The translations under genes and the position numbers were made by a program. Below are positions 14,356 through 26,987 of a DNA stretch of 37,303 bases, piece after piece. The notes beneath the pieces were generated by a model. It saw only the letters and a list, made by a program, of their open reading frames with translations, made no database searches and was not told where the DNA came from. Positions within the stretch are counted from its first letter, which is position 1. Every line of letters starts with the position of its first letter. This DNA comes from Beijerinckiaceae bacterium (lineage in GTDB: Bacteria; Pseudomonadota; Alphaproteobacteria; Rhizobiales; Beijerinckiaceae), in the NCBI GenBank assembly GCA_025458025.1, contig JALOTF010000019.1, positions 1-37,303 of the forward strand. The letters are read 5' to 3'.

Positions 14356-16734
14356 TTAGCCCGGAATAACACCGGCATTCTTTAGCATTCGGCGCAGCAG
14401 GCCGCGCATCGGCTCGAAGCGGAAAGTCACAGTCTTCACGCCTGCTGGCAGGATGACCGCGCGGAAGATGCCGTTGGCGCGCAGAACGGGCGTGGATTTC
14501 CCGTCGATCTCGGCAAACCACCAGGGATGCCAGATGTCGTTCAGTAGCAGCACGCCGCCGCGTGCGGCATCGGTTTCCACCGTGATCTCGGTATTGGTGT
14601 AATGCGTGATCCGCGCCGAACCGCCGACACGCGTACGCGGCAGGGGCAGCGAGGTGCGCTCGATATAGGCCACGCGGCGGAAATCCGTGCCCGGCCATTC
14701 CCCGAATTGCAGCAGGCGGGTCTGGTCGACGATCTGCGCCTCGTTCACCACCATCACGCGGGGAAGGGCATCCGGATTCTCGTAAATGTAGGCGTCCTTA
14801 GTGCGGGTCACCAATGGCAACGGATTGGCGCGCAGCCGCGGATCAACTTCGGCGATGGGCGCGCCGATAGCAATGAAGCGCAGGCCCATCAGGTTTGCGA
14901 AAGGCGAACGGTAGGATGGGAAGAGCGGGGCAAAGTTATGCTGGTCGACGCCAGCCACCTGGTCGCCTGCGCCCGTCGCCGCAGCGTAATGCTTCAGCCG
15001 CAGCGGGTTGTAGCCGAGCGTGTTCTCGAAGCCGTGCACAAGCCCGAGATTCGGCCAGTGGAAGCCGAGGCCCGCAATTTCCACGCGGTCGCGACGCGTA
15101 CCATCGGCCACAATCAGCTTCTTCAGGGCGAGGATTGTCTCATTCCCGGTATCGAGGCGCATCGCGTCATATTCGGCGACGGGCAGGCCGGTTGAATCAT
15201 TCGGGCGCATGTTCCAGCCGAAATCAGTCAGCAGGAGCGCGGCAAAAGCCGTGGCTGCCACCACAGGCCGGCGCATGGCAATGGGCCGGATCAGCAGCAC
15301 CACAGTGAGAGTCACGGTCACGAAAGCCAGCGCAATCAGGATATCCGGACCGGCCTGCTTGAGCTTGCCGAGCCAGATCGCCATGCCGAGCGCACCGGCA
15401 AAGCCGATGCCGACAAGCCCGGCGAGCGCCAGCAATGCGCTCCGGCCGATCTCCTCGCCGCGGCGGATCAGGTGATCAATCCCGAAGCCCGCGAGGAAGG
15501 CACCCAGCGCGCCCACGAGAAACAGCGAATCCGCCGGGCGCCGGAATAGCGAGACCCCCGGCAGGGCGTGGTAGAGCACACCGAAGAGCGGAGTGTATTG
15601 GCCCAAAGCGTAGAGGATCATCACCACGAACATGACGCCGAGCACCATGAAGCGATGCCCATAGGCTCGACGCGATGTGAGCCACAGGACGATGCCCGCC
15701 AGTGGCAGCACGCCCATGTAGAAATTCGCCATGTTCCGGGCGACCACAAGGCTCACGATATAGGGCCAGTGGACGCTGGGCGCGCCCCAGAAATTCTCGG
15801 ACGGTCCGATGGTGCCAAACAGGTTCCCAACCAGCAGCGTCAGCAGGCTGGACGGGTGGAGAGACCCCATTTCCGCTTCGGCAATGGTGAAATGCGGACG
15901 ATTCGATTCCCCCGCGAAACTCAGCACCATGATGGTCGGCACGATGATGATCGCAAAACCAACGAGCGTGCCCATCGCCAGCGGCTTCACGGTGGCACGG
16001 AAGCGCGCAAGGAAGGCGCCTCCCGTCACCCAATAGGCGACGACATAGCCCGCGAGCGCCAGCAGCGTGAGGAAAGCCACCTGATCGGGATCAAGGGCAG
16101 TGAGTGCCGCAAACAGGCCCGCAAGCGCACCGTAGCGCGCTGAGCCGAGGCGCAGGCCGCGCTCCAGCATCCACAAGGCCCAGGGGAAGTAGATGAGCGA
16201 GAAGATCTGCCCCGTATGCTGGATGCGCCACGAGGCCGCCCCGCCATAAGCGAAGGCGATGGCCGCGACGAGCGCAGCCGCCGGATGCCAGCGTCTGTCG
16301 CGCCCGAATCCCAGCACGCCGAACGCGCCGAAGAGCAGGCCGAGGAAGGTCACGGCATCCACCATCTGCATGGTGGGGTTTGGCGTCAGAAACGCCAGCA
16401 GGAGATGCGGGGGCGAGAAGATCAGCGATTGCGGATCGGCAATCTGCGGGTGGCCACCAAACACGAACGGGGCCCAGAAGGGGCTCTCGCCGCGATGAAT
16501 GGATTGCGCCAGAAACACCATCTGCGCGTGGAAATGCGCCTTCGCATCCCACGGAATGGTGACAGTGCCGGAAAGCCACGGCCAGGCAAGGCCAGCCCAG
16601 ACGATGACCAGAAGGCCGGAAACCGCGAGCCATGTGCGGGCATCATCCCCCGGTGGAACAACCGGCGGGTAGGTGATGCGCGGAAGAGGGACCGTCGAAA
16701 GGTCCCTCTCCGTATCAGGAGATTTCTGGAGCAT
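14356..16734 (-). CDS. Large polytopic membrane protein, YfhO/GT-C-like
   Basis: A 792-residue inner-membrane protein. After a proline-rich cytoplasmic start there are about a dozen hydrophobic segments (residues about 35-510), then a soluble C-terminal domain of about 270 residues ending in a beta-rich fold (DAARGGVLLLNDIWHPWWFA). The arrangement, with an early extracytoplasmic loop containing FGGHPQIADPQSLIFSPPHL, resembles YfhO-family GT-C glycosyltransferases that use polyprenyl-linked sugars. This is a fold-level call; no substrate is known. It starts 43 bases after the ribA stop on the same strand and may be co-transcribed. ATG at 16734 is used. Confidence 0.75.
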   Translation of the reverse strand: MLQKSPDTERDLSTVPLPRITYPPVVPPGDDARTWLAVSGLLVIVWAGLAWPWLSGTVTIPWDAKAHFHAQMVFLAQSIHRGESPFWAPFVFGGHPQIADPQSLIFSPPHLLLAFLTPNPTMQMVDAVTFLGLLFGAFGVLGFGRDRRWHPAAALVAAIAFAYGGAASWRIQHTGQIFSLIYFPWALWMLERGLRLGSARYGALAGLFAALTALDPDQVAFLTLLALAGYVVAYWVTGGAFLARFRATVKPLAMGTLVGFAIIIVPTIMVLSFAGESNRPHFTIAEAEMGSLHPSSLLTLLVGNLFGTIGPSENFWGAPSVHWPYIVSLVVARNMANFYMGVLPLAGIVLWLTSRRAYGHRFMVLGVMFVVMILYALGQYTPLFGVLYHALPGVSLFRRPADSLFLVGALGAFLAGFGIDHLIRRGEEIGRSALLALAGLVGIGFAGALGMAIWLGKLKQAGPDILIALAFVTVTLTVVLLIRPIAMRRPVVAATAFAALLLTDFGWNMRPNDSTGLPVAEYDAMRLDTGNETILALKKLIVADGTRRDRVEIAGLGFHWPNLGLVHGFENTLGYNPLRLKHYAAATGAGDQVAGVDQHNFAPLFPSYRSPFANLMGLRFIAIGAPIAEVDPRLRANPLPLVTRTKDAYIYENPDALPRVMVVNEAQIVDQTRLLQFGEWPGTDFRRVAYIERTSLPLPRTRVGGSARITHYTNTEITVETDAARGGVLLLNDIWHPWWFAEIDGKSTPVLRANGIFRAVILPAGVKTVTFRFEPMRGLLRRMLKNAGVIPG

Positions 16735-16777: not shown

Positions 16778-17899
16778 TCAGTCCGTCAGCGGCGCATGCG
16801 CCACCATCGCATCGAAATCGATGAAATGGCCCGCGCGGTCGCGCTTGGAGGCGAGGTAGCGCACATTTTCGGCCGTCGGGCGACCGTAGGCGCGGTTGTC
16901 GGCCACGACTTCGAGACCCGACGCCTTGAGCGCACCGATCTTCTCGGGGTTGTTGGTCATCACGCGGACGCTCGTCACGCCGAGCTTGCGCAGCATTTCG
17001 GCCGCGAAGTCGAAGCGACGCTGGTCGAGGCCGAAGCCCAGAACCTCGTCGGCGTCATAAGTGTCCCAGCCCTGCGACTGGAGCTTATAGGCGCGCATCT
17101 TGTTGGCGATGCCGTTCCCGCGGCCTTCCTGATCGAGATAGAGCAGGATGCCACCATCGGCCTGCGCCATCTTCTGAACGGTGCCGCGCAGCTGGTCGCC
17201 GCAATCGCATTTCAGCGAGCCGAACAGGTCGCCCGTGAGGCAGGCCGAATGCATGCGGATGGCCACCGGCTTCGCGAAATCCGGCTTTCCGACGATGATC
17301 GCCACCTGATCGCGCAGGCCTTCGCCGCCGCGGAACACGACAAACTCGGTCTCGGCCGCGAATTCCAGCGGAACCGGCGCGCGGCCGACGATCTGGATCG
17401 CCTTGACCTGCGCCGCACGATAATCGCGGATATCCTTCAGCGAGACGCGCATGATATCGCTCGTCAGCGTCGAAGCGGCCACCGGAATGGCATAAACCGC
17501 CGGGGTGAGGAGCGCGAGGCGCGCCAGCTCGATGGAGCCTTCATCCAGCGCGCCGGTGGGCGAAACCGGGGCATCGATGCGGGCATCGATCTTGAGTGCG
17601 AGCGTTTCCACGCGCACCGCATCCGGCACGGGGAAGGCCACAATGCCGGCCTGCTGGCGATCTAGCCCCAGACGGCGCAGGCGCGCAGCGGGGATGATGA
17701 GCCGGGCGCGGCCCGGGGCGAGGGTATCAAGGCCTTCCGCGATCCGCTGGGTCAGCGCATCCACCAGGAGCACCACGAGGGCTTCATCCCCCTCCACCAC
17801 AGCGACGGGGCGACCCGCGCGGAATTCGGCAATAGCGCGATCGACGGCGCGCTCGTCTGCAGTGTCGAAAAGGCCTAGAACTTCAGCAACCTTGCTCAT
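16778..17899 (-). CDS. ribA: GTP cyclohydrolase II with degenerate RibB-like N-terminal domain
   Basis: The C-terminal half (about residues 175-373) is GTP cyclohydrolase II, which opens GTP to 2,5-diamino-6-ribosylamino-4-pyrimidinone phosphate. Zinc cysteines Cys220, Cys231 and Cys233 are in SACLTGDLFGSLKCDCGDQL; catalytic segments QEGRGNGIANKMRAYKLQ and GFGLDQRRFDF follow. The N-terminal 170 residues align loosely with DHBP synthase (GRPVAVVEGDEAL), but the acidic DxEDRENEGD motif is gone, so RibB activity is unlikely. It diverges from a stand-alone RibD-type reductase and heads toward a YfhO-like gene. It may be the only GTP cyclohydrolase II for riboflavin, as the ribD-E-H set has none. 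Confidence 0.93.
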   Translation of the reverse strand: MSKVAEVLGLFDTADERAVDRAIAEFRAGRPVAVVEGDEALVVLLVDALTQRIAEGLDTLAPGRARLIIPAARLRRLGLDRQQAGIVAFPVPDAVRVETLALKIDARIDAPVSPTGALDEGSIELARLALLTPAVYAIPVAASTLTSDIMRVSLKDIRDYRAAQVKAIQIVGRAPVPLEFAAETEFVVFRGGEGLRDQVAIIVGKPDFAKPVAIRMHSACLTGDLFGSLKCDCGDQLRGTVQKMAQADGGILLYLDQEGRGNGIANKMRAYKLQSQGWDTYDADEVLGFGLDQRRFDFAAEMLRKLGVTSVRVMTNNPEKIGALKASGLEVVADNRAYGRPTAENVRYLASKRDRAGHFIDFDAMVAHAPLTD

Positions 17900-18119
17900 T
17901 TCACTTCCAATCAGTCCATGTTTACGGTCTTTTCGACGGAGGAATTCCGTCGGATGGACACCGTGTTCTCATTCGGTGGTGGCACTTATCACCAGCGAAG
18001 ATGAACGCAGCCTGTCTGGCCGTTCACCTTGTTTAAAATTCCTTGCCTTTGGCGGCGGGGTCCCTTCAGAACGAAATTCTGTGTTCTTCCGTGGGCCGCT
18101 TCCGGGCGGAGAAAGCACC
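17900..18119. promoter_or_regulatory. Divergent promoter region between ribA and the RibD-type reductase gene
   Basis: These 220 bases hold promoters for both genes. A 7-bp perfect inverted repeat, cgacgga (17934-17940) with tccgtcg (17946-17952) and loop ggaat, lies 35 bases upstream of the ribA start; it could be an operator or a leader hairpin. A second small hairpin, cagaa with ttctg, lies at about 18068-18083. I looked for a conserved FMN riboswitch on both strands and did not find its diagnostic core. Confidence 0.5.
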
Positions 18120-18836
18120 ATGTCTCCCTCTACGCGCCAACCTGCCGATCCGTTTGTTTTTTTTCGTCCGAACCTGCCGGATCGTCCATTCATCGTGGCG
18201 CAGCTCGGCCAATCGCTGGATGGGCGTATCGCCACTGTCACCGGTGACAGCAAATATATCGGCAGCCGGCCGTCGCTCGCGCATCTCCACGCCATCCGCG
18301 CGCATGTGGATGCGGTGGTGGTGGGAATCGGAACCGTGCTCGCCGATGATCCCAAGCTGAACGTGCGCCTATGCGCGGGGCCGAACCCGGCGCGAGTCGT
18401 GATCGATGCGAAAGGCCGCCTTCCCGCCACCGCTCAATGCCTCGATGGCGCGGATGGCGCGCGGCGCGTGGTTCTGCGCGGCCCCGAGGCGAAGGGCGAG
18501 GCGCTGCCGGCGGGTGTGGAGGTTCATGTTCTGCCGGTGAATACCGCCGGGCGATTCGACCTTCCGGAACTCGCGCGCGCGCTCCGCAACGTCGGTTTCG
18601 AGCGCGTGCTGCTGGAAGGCGGAGCCTCGATGATCTCACAGGCCATCGATGCGGGCATCGTGGACCGGCTGCATCTCATGGTCTCGCCGGTGCTCATCGG
18701 TTCGGGCCAGCCCGGTCTTGAGCTGCGGCCGGTGCAGCTTCTTGCCGAGGCGATGCGGCCTAAGGTCGAGGTGATTGTGCTCGGCGAGGGCGAGGTGTTA
18801 TTTGATTGCGACTTAAGTCGAAGGGAGAGGGATTGA
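18120..18836 (+). CDS. Stand-alone RibD C-terminal-type reductase (dihydrofolate reductase-like)
   Basis: A 238-residue NADPH-dependent reductase equal to the second half of RibD, with no deaminase. It has [48 protein letters not shown] and the cofactor-binding LLEGGASMISQAIDAGIVD. Family enzymes reduce the ribosyl side chain of the GTP cyclohydrolase II product or related pteridine/pyrimidine compounds. Since a complete RibD exists at 1582-2736, this paralogue is probably not needed for riboflavin. It is divergent from ribA and followed two bases after its stop by the cytochrome b561 gene. The true start is the ATG at 18120; an open frame continues upstream but across the divergent gene. Confidence 0.88.
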   Translation: MSPSTRQPADPFVFFRPNLPDRPFIVAQLGQSLDGRIATVTGDSKYIGSRPSLAHLHAIRAHVDAVVVGIGTVLADDPKLNVRLCAGPNPARVVIDAKGRLPATAQCLDGADGARRVVLRGPEAKGEALPAGVEVHVLPVNTAGRFDLPELARALRNVGFERVLLEGGASMISQAIDAGIVDRLHLMVSPVLIGSGQPGLELRPVQLLAEAMRPKVEVIVLGEGEVLFDCDLSRRERD

Positions 18837-18838
18837 GC

Positions 18839-19393
18839 ATGGCGACGGGACGCGAACCGCAATCCTATTCCGGCGCCCAGAAGGCGCTGCACTGGATCAT
18901 CGCTTTGATGATCCTGATCATGATCCCCATCGGCTTTTACATGGTCGATCGTGGCGAGAAGACCAATTTCGACGCCCTCACCAACACGCTCTACACCAAC
19001 CACAAGACCTTCGGCTTCGTGGTGCTGATGCTGGTCGCCCTGCGCATCGTCATCCGCCGCCGGCGAGGCGTGCCGGCACCGGTTTCCACGCTCACGCCCT
19101 TCGAGCGTTTCGCCTCCGAAGCGGTGCACAGGGCCTTGTATGGCCTCATGATTGTCGTGCCACTGCTGGGCTGGGCGGGTGTCTCGGCCTATCCCGCCCG
19201 GGGCATCCTGTTCGGCCTCTCGCTGCCGCCGATCGCGCCGGTGAACGAGACGCTCGCGAAGGTCTTGCTCGAGCTTCACGGCTGGGCGGCTCTCGCCATG
19301 GTCGCGCTGATTGCCGCGCATTTCGGCGGCGCGATGATGCATATGATCGTGAAGAAGGATGGCGTCGTGCGCCGGATGATGCCCGGCGTCTGA
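18839..19393 (+). CDS. Cytochrome b561 family protein
   Basis: A 184-residue, four-helix diheme membrane cytochrome that passes electrons between quinol and a partner. Histidines that could ligate heme are His18 (KALHW), His55 (TNHKTFG), His97 (AVHRALYG), His147 (LHGWAAL) and His161 (AHFGGA). Hydrophobic segments span about residues 18-35, 57-73, 98-115 and 143-165. It starts two bases after the RibD-type reductase stop, so it belongs to the same two-gene operon; a redox link with that operon is possible but unproven. It ends 3 bases before the converging GNAT gene. Confidence 0.9.
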   Translation: MATGREPQSYSGAQKALHWIIALMILIMIPIGFYMVDRGEKTNFDALTNTLYTNHKTFGFVVLMLVALRIVIRRRRGVPAPVSTLTPFERFASEAVHRALYGLMIVVPLLGWAGVSAYPARGILFGLSLPPIAPVNETLAKVLLELHGWAALAMVALIAAHFGGAMMHMIVKKDGVVRRMMPGV

Positions 19394-19396
19394 GGC

Positions 19397-19819
19397 TCAG
19401 AGCGTCCGGCTCATCCGCTGATAGAGGCGGCCATCTTTTTCATAGCGTTCCCCCTCGGGCTCAAGGCCCGCGCGGAGATAGATCGCCAGCGCATTCACTC
19501 GCGCATTGCACCAGAAGATGCGCCCGCCACGCCGGCGCGCTTCCTCAATCAGTGCAGCGAGAAGCCACGTGCCGATGCCCCGACCCTGCCAGGCGGGAAG
19601 CGTCGCGAATTTCCGCAATTGCACCCGCTCACCCTCGGTGAACAGGCTCGCGACGCTCACCACCATGCCCTCGGCCTCGATGGCCCAATGCGAGCCCTCG
19701 GCATCGTTCGCGATGCGCACGATATCGATGGGCTCGCCGGGATGCAGCCCCGCCACGCGCACGGGCAGGATTTCCGCAAGCGTTGCGGCGCGAACGAGGA
19801 GGGGCGGGAGGGCGTTCAT
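19397..19819 (-). CDS. GNAT-family N-acetyltransferase
   Basis: A 140-residue acetyltransferase. The acetyl-CoA binding motif A is visible as LRKFATLPAWQGRGIGTWLL (R/Q-x-x-G-x-G/A), with the following helix LIEEARRRGG and the beta-strand FWCNARVNALAIYLRAG. The substrate cannot be predicted. The ATG at 19819 overlaps the methyltransferase stop (TGATG), so it is translated with it; an in-frame TTG three bases earlier is less likely. It is the last gene of the PTPS-like/GT/methyltransferase run. Confidence 0.85.
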   Translation of the reverse strand: MNALPPLLVRAATLAEILPVRVAGLHPGEPIDIVRIANDAEGSHWAIEAEGMVVSVASLFTEGERVQLRKFATLPAWQGRGIGTWLLAALIEEARRRGGRIFWCNARVNALAIYLRAGLEPEGERYEKDGRLYQRMSRTL

Positions 19820-20670
19820 CAAGCCTTCGTGGCGAGAATATCCGTGTGGCCGGTCTTCATGCGCGAGCCCTTCTGGTCGCCCATGGAGGTGCGCCAGAAC
19901 AGCCAGTCATTCGCGCCATTGTCGGCGATCAGCCCGGTTTCCATCACGGCGCCATGCAGGCCCTTCAGAAGCTCGGTCTTCAGCGCGATATCCGAAGGTT
20001 TGAGCACCCACGGCGTATCGGCCGTTTCAACGCCGTAGCCTTCCTCGCGCAGAATCCGCGCGAGCGTGCCGGCGGCCAGCGGTCCCTCGGCCGGCCCGAA
20101 GCCCTTGTCGCGCTTCTGGTGGATCTTGAAGGCGTTGATCATGCCCCAATCGAAGGGATGCGCGGGGACGAAGTCATCGTCGCCGTTATAGGTCAGCACC
20201 GTGTAGAAGATGGCGGGCGTGGTCTTCAGCGCCTTCACGAAGCGGCGCATCCAGGGCTCGGAGATAAGGTCAAACAGGGCCGAGGCCGTGACGATATCGA
20301 CCTCGCCCGAGATGACCTTCTCGAGTTCGGTGTTGAGGTCCGCGATGCGGAAGGTGATGCCGATATTCTTGCCATCCTTCACGAGCACGAGGTTGTCGCC
20401 AATGGCCTTGGCCTCATCCGCCCATTCGGTCAGCACCTTGGCGGCGCGCTCCAGCAGGGCGGGATCGTAATCCACCAGCGTCCATTCCTGGTTTGGTCCG
20501 AGGGCAGGGGCGGTGGCGCGCAGGTTCGAGCCCGTGCCGCAGCCGAGATCGGTGATGCGCAACACGTCACGCCCCTCCACGCGCTTCGCGAGGTTCGCGA
20601 GCAGTTCGGCGGAACGGGAGCGATGGTCGGCAGGCTCACGCAGAGCCAGCCAATCGGCGGAGAAACCCAT
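19819..20670 (-). CDS. Class I SAM-dependent methyltransferase
   Basis: A 283-residue methyltransferase. Motif I is ITDLGCGTGSNLRATAP (about residues 39-55), followed by the acidic loop TLVDYDPALLERA and the motif IV-like DIVTASALFDLISEPW. The C-terminal half is rich in conserved aromatic residues (FDWGMINAFKIHQKRDKGF) not shared with common families such as UbiE. It is preceded two bases earlier by the glycosyltransferase and overlaps the GNAT gene. The substrate is unknown; the context suggests a small pteridine, pyrimidine or glycoside, as inference. Confidence 0.87.
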   Translation of the reverse strand: MGFSADWLALREPADHRSRSAELLANLAKRVEGRDVLRITDLGCGTGSNLRATAPALGPNQEWTLVDYDPALLERAAKVLTEWADEAKAIGDNLVLVKDGKNIGITFRIADLNTELEKVISGEVDIVTASALFDLISEPWMRRFVKALKTTPAIFYTVLTYNGDDDFVPAHPFDWGMINAFKIHQKRDKGFGPAEGPLAAGTLARILREEGYGVETADTPWVLKPSDIALKTELLKGLHGAVMETGLIADNGANDWLFWRTSMGDQKGSRMKTGHTDILATKA

Positions 20671-20672
20671 GG

Positions 20673-21758
20673 TCAGGCGCCTTTCGAGGCAGGGGAAACG
20701 AGTTCGGGAGCGCTGTGCGCAAGGTTTTGTAGCGCGGCAGCGATGATGCGGGCCGTATCCTCCCAGCTCGGGAGATTCTGGCCCGCGCGATGGGCGGCCT
20801 CGGCGAGGCTCGCACGCAGAGAGGGGTCGGCAAGGGCGTCATCCAGCGCCTTGCGCAGGGCGGAAACGTCACCCGGCGGCACCTTCAGGCCAGCGCCATC
20901 CGGCACGGTTTCGCTGGCAGCTCCGCCTGTCGTAGTGACGATGGGAAGCCCGCGCTGGAGGGCCTCGCTGAGCACCATGCCATAGCCTTCGAACAGCGAG
21001 GACATAACAAAAAGATCAGCCGATTCAAAAAGCTGGTCGAGATCGCGATCCGGAACCGCCCCCAGAAGCTGGATATGGTCATCGAGGCCGGAGAGGCGGA
21101 TCTGGTCGCGCAGGGCATTCACGGTTTCGAGGCTGCGCGCCGTGCCGGCAATGCGCAGCTTCCAGTTCCGCCGCTTCAGGCCATGCAGCGCCTCGATCAG
21201 CACGCCATAACCCTTGCGCGGCACGATGGAGCCCACGGCGAGCATGTTCACGATGTCGGATTTCGAGCCGGTCGCGCGCGCTTTCCGTGCCGTCCCGGGC
21301 TCGGCGACCGTGATTCGCTCACGCGGCACGCCGAAATCACCCGCGAGGATTTTCGCGGTGAGCGGCGAGGTCACAATCACATGCTCGGCCAGTGCGAGTG
21401 CTGTGGTCTCACTCGCATGAAGCGCTACGGCCCGCTCGGGCGAGATGCCGTTTTCCAGCGCGAGCGGATGGTGGCACAGGGCCACGATCCGCCGGTTGAA
21501 GCTGCGGATCAGGCTTTCGGGCATCGCGCCATAGGCGAGCCCGTCGATCAGCAGGATGTAATCCGACGGCAGGCTCGCGACAATCGCGGCTGTATCCGCG
21601 AGGTCCTCCGCGCTGGGGTTGGGGTAGCTGCCGGGCAGGGCGACGTGCAAGGCCTCCACCCCCGCCTGTGGCAGGAGGCGGATGACCGCGCGATCATACG
21701 CATAACCGCCCGTGGGCAGCGAGAGATCGCCGGGAATGACGAAGGCGATCTTGGCCAT
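20673..21758 (-). CDS. GT4-family glycosyltransferase
   Basis: A 361-residue GT-B glycosyltransferase. The donor-binding C-terminal half has LAVGSIVPRKGYGVLIEAL, then SSLFEGYGMVLSEALQRGLP with the ExxxxxxxE-type pair, and TGGAASETVPDGAG. The N-terminal half begins MAKIAFVIPGDLSLPTGGYA and includes CHHPLALENGIS. No membrane segment is evident, so it acts in the cytoplasm on a soluble or membrane-surface acceptor. A longer in-frame start exists upstream, but ATG at 21758 fits the family N-terminus and sits 4 bases after the PTPS-like stop. Acceptor and sugar are unknown. Confidence 0.9.
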   Translation of the reverse strand: MAKIAFVIPGDLSLPTGGYAYDRAVIRLLPQAGVEALHVALPGSYPNPSAEDLADTAAIVASLPSDYILLIDGLAYGAMPESLIRSFNRRIVALCHHPLALENGISPERAVALHASETTALALAEHVIVTSPLTAKILAGDFGVPRERITVAEPGTARKARATGSKSDIVNMLAVGSIVPRKGYGVLIEALHGLKRRNWKLRIAGTARSLETVNALRDQIRLSGLDDHIQLLGAVPDRDLDQLFESADLFVMSSLFEGYGMVLSEALQRGLPIVTTTGGAASETVPDGAGLKVPPGDVSALRKALDDALADPSLRASLAEAAHRAGQNLPSWEDTARIIAAALQNLAHSAPELVSPASKGA

Positions 21759-21762
21759 CGAC

Positions 21763-22164
21763 TTACGCGACCGCTCCCTCGAACCACGCGCGGGCGAGGT
21801 CCGTCTCGTGCAGGGTGACGCGGATCTTCGAGAGGCCCTTACCATCTTCGCCGAGCGCGCCGGATTTCGCCGCCTTCACCATCTCCTCGAAGATGTGATG
21901 AGCCAGGAATTCCGTGGTTGTGAGGATGTTCTTGAACTGCGGAAGCGTATCCAGGTTCTGGTATTTCAGCGGCTTAAGCACGGCTGCCAGCGTATCGAGT
22001 GCAGCGCCGATATCGACCACCACGTTCTGCTTCGTCATCGTCTCGCGGAAGAACGCGACATCCACTACGAAGGTGGCGCCGTGCATGTTCTGCGCCGGGC
22101 CAAAGAACGGATCGGGCAGCGAATGGCCGATCATGATGCGATCACGGACTTCAACGGCGAACAT
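21763..22164 (-). CDS. Divergent 6-pyruvoyltetrahydropterin synthase / QueD-like protein
   Basis: A 133-residue T-fold protein of the PTPS/QueD superfamily, whose usual members remodel dihydroneopterin triphosphate. Recognisable elements are GHSLP (His14), MHGATF (His28), VVDIGAALDTL, NLDTLPQF, TTTEFLAHHIFEEM and the C-terminal VTLHETDLARAWFEG. Two hallmarks differ: the HGH zinc motif is HGA (Ala30), and the protein has no cysteine at all, so the catalytic Cys of QueD/PTPS is absent. It may bind a pterin or catalyse a different reaction. The start at 22164 follows an AAGGA site. It is followed 4 bases later by the GT4 gene and preceded by a structured leader. Confidence 0.85.
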   Translation of the reverse strand: MFAVEVRDRIMIGHSLPDPFFGPAQNMHGATFVVDVAFFRETMTKQNVVVDIGAALDTLAAVLKPLKYQNLDTLPQFKNILTTTEFLAHHIFEEMVKAAKSGALGEDGKGLSKIRVTLHETDLARAWFEGAVA

Positions 22165-22201
22165 GGTGTGGTTCCTTCTTAACGTAGCCCGACGGGCGAC
22201 A

Positions 22202-22231
22202 GATCCCAATTCCTTGGGATCGCTGATCCCA
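22202..22231 (-). promoter_or_regulatory. Two mutually exclusive hairpins in the leader of the PTPS-like gene
   Basis: On the + strand gatccca occurs at 22202-22208 and 22225-22231, with tgggatc at 22215-22221 between them. Read on the - strand, the central arm can pair either with the upstream arm (3-base loop) or with the downstream arm (6-base loop). This is 38 bases before the PTPS-like start codon, the arrangement of a switchable leader. Confidence 0.5.
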
Positions 22232-22251
22232 AATGGCCAATGCGAGGGGCC

Positions 22252-22269
22252 TCGCGCCGGAAGGCGCGA
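22252..22269 (-). other. Hairpin after the MDR dehydrogenase gene
   Basis: A 7-bp stem, tcgcgcc (22252-22258) with ggcgcga (22263-22269), has a GGAA loop on the + strand and TTCC on the - strand. It lies 20 bases beyond the dehydrogenase stop. With no T-run it is a weak or attenuating terminator between the dehydrogenase and PTPS-like genes. Confidence 0.45.
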
Positions 22270-22289
22270 AACGAAAACAATGAGCTGGT

Positions 22290-23270
22290 TCAGTATTCAA
22301 CCAGCGTCACGAGGCCTTTCGCATCCGCAGCGAGCAGCCGTGGAATCGCGTCGGGCAAAGCGGGAAAGGGAAGCGTTTCGGTGAGAAGCGCGTCGAGCCT
22401 TTCGTCACGCAATAAGCGCAAGGCTGCCTGAAGGCGCGATGAATAAGTCCAGCCGCGCGATGCATGGCCCGGCGAAACCGTGCCGACCTGCGAGGAGACG
22501 AGCTTCACGCGGCCTGCATGGAAATGCCCGCCCAGCGGCACCATCAACGGCTTTTCGCCAAACCACGAGAGTTCGATCACCGTGCCGTTGGGTGCGGTGG
22601 AATGGATCGCCGTCGCGAGACCGGGCTGGCTCGCGGAGGTGTGGAACACGACATCCCTATGCTTCGGCGCATCGGCGGGCAGGGCGAATCGCGCGCCGAA
22701 ACGCTCGGCCATCTCGGCCCGCGCGGGGTTCACATCCACGAGTGTCACGTCCGCACCGGGAAAGCGCGCGGCGAGATACGTGACGAGCAGGCCCACGAGC
22801 CCGCCGCCGACCACAGTCACACGATCGGCCGCACTCATGCCGGAATCCCAGATCGCGTTGAGCGCCGTCTCCATATTGGCAGCGAGCGTCGCGCGCGGGG
22901 TGGGAATGTCATCGGGGATGAGGTTGAGCATCGCGGTTTTCGCGTTGAAGCGATCCTGATGCGGATGGAGCACGAAGACGCGCTTGCCCACGAGTTCCTC
23001 CGCCCCTTCCTCCACCTGCGCCACCGCGCAATAGCCGTATTTCACAGGGAAGGGGAAATCGCCGGACTGATGCGGGCAGCGCATGCGCTCGCGCTCGGCT
23101 TCCGGCACGAGGCCCGAGGCGATGAGCCGTTCCGTGCCGCGCGAGAGGGCCGAAGCCAGCATCACGAGGCGGGATTCATCCGCGAGCGTTGGCTCCACGC
23201 GCTCCTCGCGCAACTCGGCCTGCATGGGGCCGACATACCAGAGCGCGCGGGCGGGAATGGATGTGAACAT
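22290..23270 (-). CDS. MDR-superfamily dehydrogenase (zinc-binding alcohol dehydrogenase-like)
   Basis: A 326-residue medium-chain dehydrogenase/reductase. The Rossmann segment is TVVGGGLVGLLVTYLAARFP, followed by VTLVDVNPARAEMAERFGA; the acidic residue after the second strand favours NAD(H). The N-terminal half has ALSRGTERLIASGLVP and PVKYGYCAVAQVEEG, similar in style to the BchC-like branch. It lacks the GHE motif and the four structural-zinc cysteines of classic alcohol dehydrogenases, so zinc binding is uncertain. It is first in the - strand run, 125 bases before the PTPS-like gene. The substrate is unknown, probably an intermediate of the same pathway. Confidence 0.85.
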   Translation of the reverse strand: MFTSIPARALWYVGPMQAELREERVEPTLADESRLVMLASALSRGTERLIASGLVPEAERERMRCPHQSGDFPFPVKYGYCAVAQVEEGAEELVGKRVFVLHPHQDRFNAKTAMLNLIPDDIPTPRATLAANMETALNAIWDSGMSAADRVTVVGGGLVGLLVTYLAARFPGADVTLVDVNPARAEMAERFGARFALPADAPKHRDVVFHTSASQPGLATAIHSTAPNGTVIELSWFGEKPLMVPLGGHFHAGRVKLVSSQVGTVSPGHASRGWTYSSRLQAALRLLRDERLDALLTETLPFPALPDAIPRLLAADAKGLVTLVEY

Positions 23271-23453: not shown

Positions 23454-25265
23454 ATGACCACCTCCACCGAGCCCGCCGCCCCCCGCGCCGAGCTTCCGCT
23501 GACCCCCACCGGCACCCAAAGCTCGGAAGTGCTGATGCTGCGCCGCCTCATCGTGGCGGGGCTCAACATCGTGCTGTATCTCGCGCTCGCGGCGTGGGGC
23601 TGGTCCATTCTGGCGGTGGGCGGCTGGTCCGTCGTCGATATCCTGCTCTTTATCTGCTTCCTGCTGGGCACGCCCTGGGCGGTTCTCGGCTTCTGGAACG
23701 CCATCATCGGCCTGTTCCTGCTCCATGGCCCGCGCAACGCGATGCAGGATGTCGCGCCCTTCGCGGCCATCGCTAACCCGGCCATGCCGGTGACGCTGAA
23801 GACCGCGATCTTCATGACCCTCCGCAACGAGGATCCCTCGCGCGCCTTCCGCCGGCTGCGGCTGGTGAAAGAAACGGTCGACGCGACCGGATATGGCACG
23901 CAATTCGCGTATTTCCTGCTCTCCGACACCAACAAGGATGATGTCGCGGCACAAGAAGAGGAACTCTTCGCCGCGTGGAAGGCCGAGGCCGGCGAAGCCG
24001 CGCCGCTGTTCTATCGTCGCCGCACGGACAATACCGGCTTCAAGGCCGGCAACGTGAAAGACTTCCTGAACCGCTGGGGCTCGGATTACGACCTCATGCT
24101 GCCGCTCGATGCGGATAGCCTGATGGATGGCGAGACGATCCTCCGCCATGTCCGCATCATGGAGGCGAACCCGAAGCTCGGCATTTTGCAGAGCCTTGTC
24201 GTGGGCATGCCCTCTCAGAGCCTGTTCGCGCGCGTTTTCCAGTTCGGCATGCGGCAGGGCATGCGCTCCTACACCATGGGTCAGGCCTGGTGGGTCGGCG
24301 ATTGCGGCCCGTTCTGGGGGCACAATGCGCTCGCGCGGATCGCGCCCTTCCGCGATCATTGCGAATTGCCGGTGCTGCCGGGTCCGCCGCCCTTTGGCGG
24401 GCATATCCTCAGCCATGATCAGGTGGAAGCCACCTTCATGCGTCGCGCCGGCTATGAAGTGCGCGTGATGCCGGAAGAGGGTGGTTCGTGGGAGGAAAAC
24501 CCGCCGACCATCCTCGAATTCATGAAGCGCAACACACGCTGGTGCCAGGGTAACCTGCAATATTTCAAGCTGCTCAACACGAAGGGCCTCTATCCGGTCA
24601 GCCGTTTCCAGCTGATCTGGGCCATCCTGATGTTCCTTGGCATCCCCGCCTGGACCTTGATGCTGCCGCTGGCGGCGCTGAAGCCCTTCGATGGCGAGAG
24701 CCTTGCGGCCTTCCCGGCCGGTTCGGCGCTGACGCTCTATATCTTCTTCACGATCATGAACCTCATGCCGAAGATCGCAGGCCTGCTGGATATCATGCTC
24801 ACTCCCGGCGGCACGAAGCGCTACGGCGGGACGGGCAAGTTCCTGTTCGCGGGGCTGACGGAAATCGTCTTCGCGTGGATTCTCGGTGCCTCGGACACCT
24901 TCCGCACCACCGTGTTCATCGTGGGCCTGCTGTTCGGCAAGTCGGTGACATGGGGCGGGCAGGCGCGTGACGCGCATGGCGTGCCGTGGGATGTCGCGAC
25001 CTCGAATCTTTGGCCGCAGACCCTGTTCGGCTTCTTCGTCGTGGGCCTGATGGCCACCACCTCGGTGCAGTTTGCGCTGTGGTCGCTGCCGCTGACCCTC
25101 GGCTTCCTCGTGGCCATCCCCTTCGCGGTATGGAGCGCCGAGCCGTCCCTCGGTGCGGGCAGCGTGAAGCGCGGCCTCTATGCGATACCCGAGGAAATCG
25201 ACACGCCGCCGATCGTGGCGAAGCTGCGCGCGCAGGAAAACGCGGCCCCGGAAGCAGGACACTGA
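23454..25265 (+). CDS. opgH: Glucans biosynthesis glucosyltransferase H (OpgH/MdoH)
   Basis: OpgH polymerises UDP-glucose into the backbone of osmoregulated periplasmic glucans and exports the chain. The 603-residue protein has two N-terminal membrane segments (about 25-85), a GT2 domain, and several C-terminal segments (about 385-560). GT2 landmarks are FMTLRNEDPSRAF, LLSDTNKDD, MLPLDADSLMDGE (DxD), FWGHNALARIAPFRDHC, LSHDQVEATFMRRAG and the RxxRW-like NTRWCQGNLQ. It is shorter than the 847-residue E. coli enzyme, lacking its long N-terminal extension, and no opgG lies beside it. Two bases separate it from the FkbM gene. Confidence 0.92.
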   Translation: MTTSTEPAAPRAELPLTPTGTQSSEVLMLRRLIVAGLNIVLYLALAAWGWSILAVGGWSVVDILLFICFLLGTPWAVLGFWNAIIGLFLLHGPRNAMQDVAPFAAIANPAMPVTLKTAIFMTLRNEDPSRAFRRLRLVKETVDATGYGTQFAYFLLSDTNKDDVAAQEEELFAAWKAEAGEAAPLFYRRRTDNTGFKAGNVKDFLNRWGSDYDLMLPLDADSLMDGETILRHVRIMEANPKLGILQSLVVGMPSQSLFARVFQFGMRQGMRSYTMGQAWWVGDCGPFWGHNALARIAPFRDHCELPVLPGPPPFGGHILSHDQVEATFMRRAGYEVRVMPEEGGSWEENPPTILEFMKRNTRWCQGNLQYFKLLNTKGLYPVSRFQLIWAILMFLGIPAWTLMLPLAALKPFDGESLAAFPAGSALTLYIFFTIMNLMPKIAGLLDIMLTPGGTKRYGGTGKFLFAGLTEIVFAWILGASDTFRTTVFIVGLLFGKSVTWGGQARDAHGVPWDVATSNLWPQTLFGFFVVGLMATTSVQFALWSLPLTLGFLVAIPFAVWSAEPSLGAGSVKRGLYAIPEEIDTPPIVAKLRAQENAAPEAGH

Positions 25266-25267
25266 CC

Positions 25268-26038
25268 ATGGCGCTTTCCACGCTTGAAATCTCCGCACTG
25301 ACGACGAAATGGCCGCATCTGAAGCGGTCCTTCGAGGTCTATCACGGCGACCAGCCGCGGGATGACGCGATGGACGCGCTTTATGCGCGCTTCCTCACGA
25401 AGGGGTCGCTCGCCTTCGATGTCGGCAGCCATGTGGGGGACCGGATCGGCTCCTTCCGCCGCTGCGGCGCGCGCGTCGTGGCGCTGGAACCCCAGCCGGA
25501 TTGCGCTTCCGCCATCCGGCTCGTCTTCGCGGGTGATACGAGCGTGACGCTGCTCGAAAGCGCCTGCGGGCCGAAGCCCGGCGAGCTCACGCTGCATGTG
25601 AATACGGCGAACCCCACGGTCTCCACCGCTTCCGCCGATTTCCTGAAGGCAGCGGATGGCGCGGCGGGTTGGGAAGGGCAGATCTGGGATCGCGAGATCC
25701 ATGTGCCGGTCACCACGCTGGATGCCCTCATCGCGCAATATGGCATGCCGGATTTCGTGAAGATCGATGTCGAAGGCTTCGAGGCCGATGTGCTCGGTGG
25801 CCTCACGCGGGCCATCCCGGCCTTGTCGTTCGAGTTCACGACCATCCAGCGCGACGTGGCCTATCAATGCCTCGCGCTCATCGCGAAGCGTGGCGCGTAT
25901 CGCTTCAACATCGCGCTGGGCGAGAGCCAGAACATGGCCTTCGCGGAGGGCATTTCCGCCGAAGCCATGGAAGCGCATATCCGCGCCCTGCCGCATGAAG
26001 CCAATTCGGGAGACGTCTATGCGGTTCTCGATCGCTAG
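25268..26038 (+). CDS. FkbM-family SAM-dependent methyltransferase
   Basis: A 256-residue FkbM-type methyltransferase, a family that usually O-methylates sugars or polyketides. Motif I is LAFDVGSHVGDRIGSFRRCG (residues about 43-62), then VVALEPQPDC, and the family-defining MPDFVKIDVEGFEADVLGGL (about 161-180). The start follows the opgH stop by two bases. The 3' end overlaps the next gene by 20 bases in another frame. Position next to opgH suggests methylation of a periplasmic glucan or other glycan precursor, by inference only. Confidence 0.9.
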   Translation: MALSTLEISALTTKWPHLKRSFEVYHGDQPRDDAMDALYARFLTKGSLAFDVGSHVGDRIGSFRRCGARVVALEPQPDCASAIRLVFAGDTSVTLLESACGPKPGELTLHVNTANPTVSTASADFLKAADGAAGWEGQIWDREIHVPVTTLDALIAQYGMPDFVKIDVEGFEADVLGGLTRAIPALSFEFTTIQRDVAYQCLALIAKRGAYRFNIALGESQNMAFAEGISAEAMEAHIRALPHEANSGDVYAVLDR

Positions 26039-26987
26039 TCTCGCCGCCATCCTCGCGCTTGTCGCGCCCGCTTTTGCCCAAAACACGCCCGGAGGCCCTG
26101 TGCTCGCTCCCCCGAAAGACGAAATGACCGTCAAGGTCCAGAACCTCTCCGAACCCGAGGTTTGCGCCGAGAAGGACAACATCGACATCCGCTTCTCGAA
26201 TCCGGATGTGCGGCGCTTCAAGATCCAGGCGATCCAGCCGAGCTATATCGGCATGCTGCGCGAGGACCGCTACCTGCCGGACTGGACCGCCTGCGACATG
26301 ACCGGCGATCCGGCCTATGTCTCGGGCAAGCCGCGGCAGGTGACCTTGTGGGAAACGCCCTCGATGTGGGTGGTGGGGCATGTCTTCCCGGCCTTCTGGC
26401 GCCCGGCCACCGTGCCGGTGAAGATCGGCGACCGTGTGGAGCATGGCCTGCACCTCATCCAGCTCTGGATGCGCGTGAACGAGCGCTCGGAAGAGATGCT
26501 CGTGGTCTACCCGCCCGATGGCTACTGGCGCATGCGCCCGCTTCCGCCGAAGCATCTCGGCTGGACCGCCTATGGCTCGAGCTTCATGGTCGGCCCGGTG
26601 ACGCATGAGGGGCGCCCGATCGTGGCGCTGAAGGAAATCGCCTTCGACCCCGAGGAGAAGAAGTTCACCTTCACCTTCCGCGATGGCGGGGAGGGGGCCT
26701 TGCGCATCGTGCACCTGGATACGGATCGCTTCGTGCTGGAGGCGACGCTGGCGGGGGATCTCCCGAAGGACAAGCCCTTCGCGGCCATTCGCTCGATGTA
26801 CATCACCGAGACGAATAACGATGCGGCCCGTGTTGCTTGGCGCGAGGCGAAGAACCCACGCTGGGGTGAAGAACATATCCTCGATTACAAGGGCGGCGAG
26901 GCAACCGAGTTCTGGGCCGGCCGCCATGTGGCCTCGCGCCATAACACCTCCGCGCCGGATATGGTGTTCTCCCGCTTCGAGAGATAA
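26019..26987 (+). CDS. Secreted protein of unknown function, opgH-linked
   Basis: A 322-residue protein with a clean Sec signal peptide (MRFSIASLAAILALVAPAFA, predicted cleavage after Ala20) and no further membrane segment, so it is periplasmic or exported. I do not recognise a named family. Visible features are an aromatic-rich core (LWETPSMWVVGHVFPAFWRP, DGYWRMRPLPPKHLGWTAYG) and a beta-rich C-terminal half with FTFTFRDGGEGALRIVHLD. It starts inside the fkbM gene (20-base overlap) and ends the operon before a strong terminator. Co-transcription with opgH suggests a role with periplasmic glucan, for example binding or trimming; that is inference. Confidence 0.85.
   Translation: MRFSIASLAAILALVAPAFAQNTPGGPVLAPPKDEMTVKVQNLSEPEVCAEKDNIDIRFSNPDVRRFKIQAIQPSYIGMLREDRYLPDWTACDMTGDPAYVSGKPRQVTLWETPSMWVVGHVFPAFWRPATVPVKIGDRVEHGLHLIQLWMRVNERSEEMLVVYPPDGYWRMRPLPPKHLGWTAYGSSFMVGPVTHEGRPIVALKEIAFDPEEKKFTFTFRDGGEGALRIVHLDTDRFVLEATLAGDLPKDKPFAAIRSMYITETNNDAARVAWREAKNPRWGEEHILDYKGGEATEFWAGRHVASRHNTSAPDMVFSRFER

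Follow-up and report, generated by a model that had tools for sequence, protein, structure and literature searches.

The window analysed here, a stretch of 37,303 nucleotides from a Beijerinckiaceae bacterium (GenBank assembly GCA_025458025.1, contig JALOTF010000019.1, forward strand), carries within positions 16778-23270 a run of four genes, encoding an MDR-type dehydrogenase, a PTPS-like T-fold protein, a GT4 glycosyltransferase and a class I S-adenosylmethionine-dependent methyltransferase, that is a real conserved cluster; its recurrence supports well the view that the run is a functional unit. A RibD-type reductase that has the RibD_C domain only (RibDr) also belongs to the cluster, and RibA, a guanosine triphosphate (GTP) cyclohydrolase II (GCHII), is its frequent, optional partner. 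The reading that we favour, as a probable one, is a dedicated branch that leaves riboflavin synthesis at an intermediate and ends in a pyrimidine or pteridine carrying methyl and sugar groups.

The original prediction described eight genes in one block. All eight are present, their frames are open and they match the Pfam and NCBIfam families described, but they form three strand runs rather than one block. On the minus strand, the dehydrogenase gene (22290-23270) is the first of the core run and is followed by those of the PTPS-like protein (21763-22164), the glycosyltransferase (20673-21758), the methyltransferase (19819-20670) and a GNAT acetyltransferase (19397-19822), the spacers being 125, 4 and 2 bp, with a 4-bp overlap of the last two genes. 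RibDr (18120-18836), a divergent subfamily, and a cytochrome b561 (18839-19393), which starts 2 bp downstream of it, are on the plus strand, and ribA (16778-17899, minus strand) is divergent from RibDr. For RibDr, b561, the glycosyltransferase and the PTPS-like protein, an internal ATG was chosen as the start codon.

We followed the cluster in three sets of loci. The class sample comprises 35 further loci, with flanks fetched, from 289 genomes of Alphaproteobacteria, the window's own genome included. The named loci are the best 80 of at least 589 stretches encoding the PTPS-IV subfamily, to which the PTPS-like protein is assigned below, that turned up when 84,980 species genomes were scanned, where one locus may count twice; this set is biased to close relatives, because it was picked by score. 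Together these give 115 loci, and eight plasmid loci bring the number to 123. Counts within 6 kb are restricted to loci with full flanks, which leaves out 7 of the 35 class-sample loci and 17 of the 80 named ones.

The PTPS-like protein was found in 36 of the 289 genomes, as a single copy in each, and a separate search for the dehydrogenase (E<=1e-20, at most seven candidates scored per genome) yielded the identical set of 36 genomes and no others; in one of them (G035) the two genes are on different contigs, so that co-presence there is per genome and not adjacency. All four genes of the run are situated on the same strand within 6 kb at 26 of the 28 loci in the class sample, at 51 of the 63 named ones and at 6 of the 8 on plasmids; taken singly, the glycosyltransferase is so placed at 27 and the methyltransferase at 26 of the 28 class-sample loci. 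RibDr is found within 6 kb at 22/28, 40/63 and 5/8 loci, respectively. Thus, the co-occurrence of the PTPS-like gene with the dehydrogenase, glycosyltransferase, methyltransferase and RibD-type reductase across Alphaproteobacteria, which had been named as the way to check the prediction, is indeed observed. The four-gene arrangement is absent from two class-sample loci (L063, L064), two plasmid loci (L185, L191) and twelve named loci (L092, L103, L111, L113, L116, L122, L127, L133, L135, L136, L142, L149). In a tblastn search with the window proteins, the 115 loci yielded PTPS at 115, the methyltransferase at 107, the dehydrogenase at 106, the glycosyltransferase at 105, RibDr at 74, b561 at 50 and RibA at 48 loci.

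The other predicted members fared differently. The cytochrome b561 is a regional, lineage-specific partner, common in some lineages (37/63 named loci within 6 kb) but present at only 6/28 class-sample loci. The acetyltransferase had been counted, with some reserve, among the decorating enzymes; its gene has no match (E<=1e-5) at any of the 123 loci, and it is probably not a pathway gene.

By its sequence, the PTPS-like protein is a member of the known PTPS-IV (FGPAQ) subfamily. In an alignment of 120 proteins (the window's and those of 119 of the 123 loci, the ones with an unclean frame being left out) this signature is nearly invariant: F36 and G37 are found in all 120 proteins, P38 and A39 in 119 and Q40 in 118. 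The motifs FGKC, HGH and LDHKNLD of PTPS read FGPA (118 of 120), HGA (119 of 120) and LNYxNLD in the window's family, while the first His and the Glu are kept in all 120 and the TTTE stretch is retained. In PTPS itself, the Cys and the Asp-His pair act in catalysis, the His residues are zinc ligands and the Glu anchors the base; hence the replacements deprive the family of the catalytic Cys and of one zinc ligand as well as of the Asp-His pair, with the Glu kept. PDB entry 3d7j, which is SCO6650 of Streptomyces coelicolor, was matched over 131 positions with E 1e-60 by a profile built from 36 family members, whose matches to true PTPS and QueD were weak. SCO6650 is thus of the same family, although it is an actinobacterial homologue, and the study of its structure is said to have found zinc, triad and PTPS activity all absent.

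The closest solved relatives of RibDr are Rib7-type reductases (6p8c, 2azn, 5xv2). It shares the RibD_C fold with these and with RibD/RibG, but differs from both at the specificity site, where, according to the passage on recognition in PMC3631187, a Lys in bacterial RibD/RibG recognises the 2-oxo group, its counterpart being Thr in the fungal and Asn in the archaeal enzymes. Mapped through an alignment with the Rib7-type structures, this site (Lys151/152) is occupied in 79 RibDr proteins by Gln in 61, the window's among them, by His in 16 and by Leu in one, with a gap in one. Both features of bacterial bifunctional RibD, the deaminase domain and the Lys, are therefore missing, and neither the Asn nor the Thr of archaeal and fungal Rib7 is seen. 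At the positions of the Asp33/Arg36 pair of archaeal Rib7, Asp is found in 11 of the 79 proteins and Arg in none, His being present in 75. Given the Gln or His at the specificity site, the substrate of RibDr is probably another relative of the riboflavin intermediates, or a modified one. RibDr is the second RibD-type reductase of the window, since a bifunctional riboflavin RibD (TIGR00326 over its cut-off, 222.9 bits) is encoded at 1582-2736.

The best NCBIfam match of the dehydrogenase is BchC, far under its cut-off. The alignment covers 112 loci and the window, unclean frames being left out; at positions 43-47 and 78-80, which we take to be the places of ligands in zinc MDRs, the 112 aligned proteins have Ser43, Gly45, Glu47, Gly79 and Tyr80 in 112, Tyr78 in 111, Thr46 in 110 and Arg44 in 107 cases. 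Judging from these residues, the enzyme may lack catalytic zinc binding. The solved relatives of the glycosyltransferase include PimB', MshA and PimA, which use inositol-type acceptors. The search with the methyltransferase gave no informative match, and the single PADLOC match was that of this protein to mads_2 (40.7 bits).

RibA has the residues of a GCHII: C220, C231, C233 and Y254, the zinc Cys residues and the Tyr, are each present in 52 of 53 aligned RibA proteins, and its N-terminal part does not match any separate RibB model. The window genome has three GCHII domains, among which that of RibA is the sole one over riboflavin-type cut-offs. The second is in a RibBA (C47, L069:6566-7858) whose RibB part exceeds its cut-off and whose GCHII part reaches 35.9 bits against 205.85 and has no zinc Cys. 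The third protein (C112, which with its neighbour lies at L070:12413-14909) matches NF005536 with 739.5 bits and has the Cys motif; we take it to be the uracil-catabolic URC1, and the adjoining gene, which has no NCBIfam match, to be probably URC4. The weakness of the RibBA domain, together with this putative assignment of the NF005536 protein, makes it likely, not certain, that the window RibA also serves riboflavin synthesis. We also note a complementary decay in this genome, RibA having an intact GCHII and RibBA an intact-scoring RibB with a GCHII devoid of the zinc Cys.

In the wider sample, GCHII proteins scoring at least 165 bits to NF006456, a threshold set at a gap in the scores, are present in 28 of 36 cluster genomes vs 88 of 253 others (Fisher p 2e-6, ignoring relatedness). 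As a side observation, 165 of the 253 Alphaproteobacteria without the cluster have no GCHII above this level, and their readable RibBA-like domains are without the zinc Cys; in this reading of zinc sites, no domain could be read at L163, L177 and L203, and that of L208 was not clear. NF006456 is not suited to single out a RibA specific to the cluster: it is over its cut-off in two of the 289 genomes only (G000, G189), and the RibA of an Agrobacterium plasmid also passes.

Beyond 16778-23270, the recurring neighbours in the window are an MdoH-like GT2 (23454-25265, plus strand, divergent from the dehydrogenase), an FkbM-type methyltransferase (25268-26038, plus strand; named by an annotated homologue and by eye) and a large YfhO-like protein just downstream of RibA (14356-16734, minus strand; its YfhO match is below threshold, 18.4 bits vs a cut-off of 28.5). 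These were found at 62, 40 and 16 of the 115 loci, respectively, and fabH at two; the MdoH-like gene, a recurring partner in one cluster type, lies within 6 kb at 7/28 class-sample and 44/63 named loci. At the 123 loci, further neighbours are a CDP-alcohol phosphatidyltransferase (n = 28), an annotated sulfatase (n = 17), an inositol-monophosphatase-type protein (n = 14), an LPG-synthase-TM flippase (n = 13), a YceI-like protein (n = 11, by eye) and a creatininase (n = 9). Two membrane modules emerge: one consists of the MdoH-like GT2 and the YfhO-like protein, the other of the CDP-alcohol phosphatidyltransferase, the flippase and the annotated sulfatase. They are almost mutually exclusive, as the CDP gene is present at 2 of 63 MdoH loci vs 26 of the 60 others; taxonomy accounts for a part of this exclusivity.

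For the substrate, the order of steps, the product and its location we propose the following scheme. RibA would open GTP, giving 2,5-diamino-6-ribosylamino-pyrimidinone phosphate, and RibDr would reduce the ribosyl side chain of this compound, or of a modified relative, to a ribityl chain. PTPS-IV, with its Glu and TTTE kept, would bind the pyrimidine or pteridine, either as a carrier or as the catalyst of a different ring or side-chain step. The dehydrogenase would oxidise a hydroxyl, the methyltransferase would add a methyl group and the glycosyltransferase would attach a sugar, most likely on the polyol chain. The outcome would be a glycosylated, methylated pyrimidine or pteridine, as the original prediction supposed, and one of the two neighbouring membrane modules might provide for its export or envelope anchoring. 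In a bolder version, which we regard as doubtful, an undescribed pathway would operate across Proteobacteria and Actinomycetota and yield a glycosylated, methylated ribityl-pyrimidine or ribityl-pteridine anchored in the envelope, or decorating it, through the phosphatidyl-transfer or the glucan module, where it might exchange electrons with b561 as its partner in the membrane or absorb ultraviolet light, with a PTPS-IV reaction new for T-fold proteins.

Several observations weigh against the dedicated branch. The dehydrogenase was not found at nine of the 115 loci (L058, L072, L074, L077, L092, L107, L111, L131, L135), three of which (L058, L077, L107) adjoin a contig end. PTPS-IV is solitary at L111 and at two of the eight plasmid loci (L185 and L191, Streptomyces plasmids); on these plasmids it lies near genes for MEKHLA-domain, cupin and MBL-fold proteins. 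The family matches of the dehydrogenase and the methyltransferase are generic; RibDr, having none of the known recognition residues, may act on a substrate other than a riboflavin intermediate; RibA is missing from the 6-kb surroundings at 17 of the 28 class-sample loci, and in 8 of the 36 cluster genomes no GCHII reaches 165 bits. If RibA were only the housekeeping enzyme, as the original prediction allowed, and lay here by chance, the MDR-PTPS-GT4-methyltransferase-RibDr pathway would not start from GCHII, and one would read in this sense the state of the other two GCHII domains of the genome, the presence of RibA within 6 kb at only 11/28 class-sample loci and the relatives of RibA in 88 genomes without the cluster. 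However, RibA recurs at the clusters of distant taxa (Streptomyces L184, Agrobacterium L188, Palleronia L190 and the betaproteobacteria-titled L133 and L149), and a second GCHII is situated inside the cluster region in three genomes (G015, G216, G161). Moreover, the window's family is represented in the sample by two genomes with the cluster, which carry RibA, and two without it (G070, G283), which have a single RibBA-like GCHII domain each, with no zinc Cys (L193, L194, L214, L215). We consider this alternative rather unlikely. The part of the prediction that made RibA a pathway gene agrees with its recurrence beside the cluster, and the housekeeping alternative agrees with its being the sole riboflavin-type GCHII here; both may hold, and RibA appears to act as an optional supplier or a shared one.

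Alternatively, the cluster could make an envelope glycan or lipid, with the RibD-, PTPS- and MDR-like proteins recruited to non-pteridine chemistry; the recurrence of two almost exclusive membrane modules would fit this. We consider it improbable, given the recurrence of RibA, the Glu and the TTTE stretch retained in PTPS-IV, the partly taxonomic distribution of the modules and the fact that neither module was seen at the cluster in two genomes of small size, 1.4 and 1.6 Mb. As to coenzyme F420, it shares intermediates with riboflavin, and at one locus an F420-like gene set (L038:8085-14206, G246; FbiC by the CofH model, and CofC, CofD, CofE and F420:NADPH oxidoreductase-like genes by eye) begins some 5.5 kb away from PTPS-IV. 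PMC5041015 also mentions, as unpublished work, that PTPS-IV takes part in the F420 synthesis of archaea. However, CofH is not enriched in cluster genomes (over its cut-off in 7/36, vs 12/80 picked genomes without the cluster; Fisher p 0.59), it has no match in the window genome, and F420 genes lie near the cluster at one of the 123 loci; thus, an F420 role is not supported and has very little probability. Finally, a normal PTPS or QueD reaction, yielding a tetrahydrobiopterin or queuosine precursor with the neighbours being incidental, would accord with all eight plasmid records, where the gene is called 6-carboxytetrahydropterin synthase, and with its being the single PTPS Pfam match of the window genome (97% complete), in which no canonical QueD was found. 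The protein scores 30.8 bits against a QueD cut-off of 89.25, and since the catalytic residues are absent it cannot be such an enzyme; this function is rejected as very improbable, and with it the ordinary sense of the "T-fold pterin enzyme" of the original prediction.

As for known systems, the toxoflavin pathway comprises a GCHII, a RibD-type enzyme and a methyltransferase, all of which it has in common with the window cluster; PTPS-IV, MDR and GT4 proteins are not known to be part of it. In cyanobacteria and Chlorobium, pterin glycosides are made by way of GTP cyclohydrolase I and a PTPS-II that is catalytic. The window cluster, unlike these, has a GCHII and a PTPS relative without the catalytic residues. 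Still, such glycosides (PMC13259868, PMC5683033) provide a precedent for bacterial pterin glycosylation. The nearest description is that of the PTPS-IV neighbourhood: the AGeNNT paper PMC5445326 (2017), in its part on this subfamily, gives the FGPAQ signature and finds PF00925 and PF01872 in the neighbourhood of cluster-node 62 (561 sequences). Signature and both families are shared with the window. The relevant parts of this paper and of PMC5041015, a review of paralogs, mention no MDR, GT4, methyltransferase or membrane modules, term PF00925 GTP cyclohydrolase I/FolE2 and give no established function. In the open-licence papers searched, we found no description of the whole cluster; as the cyclohydrolase and RibD families in question were placed beside PTPS-IV in print in 2017, its novelty is partial.

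The cluster extends beyond Alphaproteobacteria to Actinomycetota and Gammaproteobacteria in annotated plasmid records. On a plasmid of Streptomyces fungicidicus it is accompanied by the CDP-alcohol phosphatidyltransferase, creatininase and RibA, and it is also found in plasmid records of Microbacterium, Thiodictyon (a gammaproteobacterium), Agrobacterium, Methylosinus and Palleronia. In a tree of the dehydrogenase and PTPS-IV from the window and 35 of the 123 loci, hand-picked for spread (L125 and L149 dropped out), Pseudohaliea, one of the Gammaproteobacteria, stands together with Palleronia, one of the Alphaproteobacteria, with support 0.93, a grouping that suggests transfer. We read the cluster as partly mobile. 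The two small genomes mentioned above (L054, L052; loci of 26-28% GC) have kept the genes for creatininase, MDR, PTPS, GT4, methyltransferase, RibDr and RibA, perhaps the minimal set. As a minor observation, the loci titled Aquiluna and Methylopumilus (L125, L137) have the arrangement seen in Rhodobacteraceae and in an Alcaligenaceae-titled record, and are possibly mis-binned contigs.

A solved pathway would correct the plasmid annotations, which name PTPS-IV proteins queuosine enzymes despite the lost catalytic residues, and would explain the second RibD-type reductase in cluster genomes; it could also bring to light a new pteridine-like compound, be it a cofactor, a pigment or a part of the envelope. 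Since the dehydrogenase and PTPS-IV have identical distributions and cultured strains carry the cluster, the proposal can be tested directly.

Among the neighbours, the creatininase was tried as an ArfB-type deformylase and rejected, since the one gene tested, at L039, reaches 19.3 bits with ArfB and has its best match in MftE, with 106.5 bits against a cut-off of 172. The annotated sulfatase (L188) had no match in Pfam or NCBIfam, and its PDB matches were at chance level. Downstream of the FkbM-type gene, the window encodes at 25767-26987 a protein without a Pfam match and with a signal-like start (by eye), and a protein resembling it, also by eye, recurs at 25 of the 115 loci.

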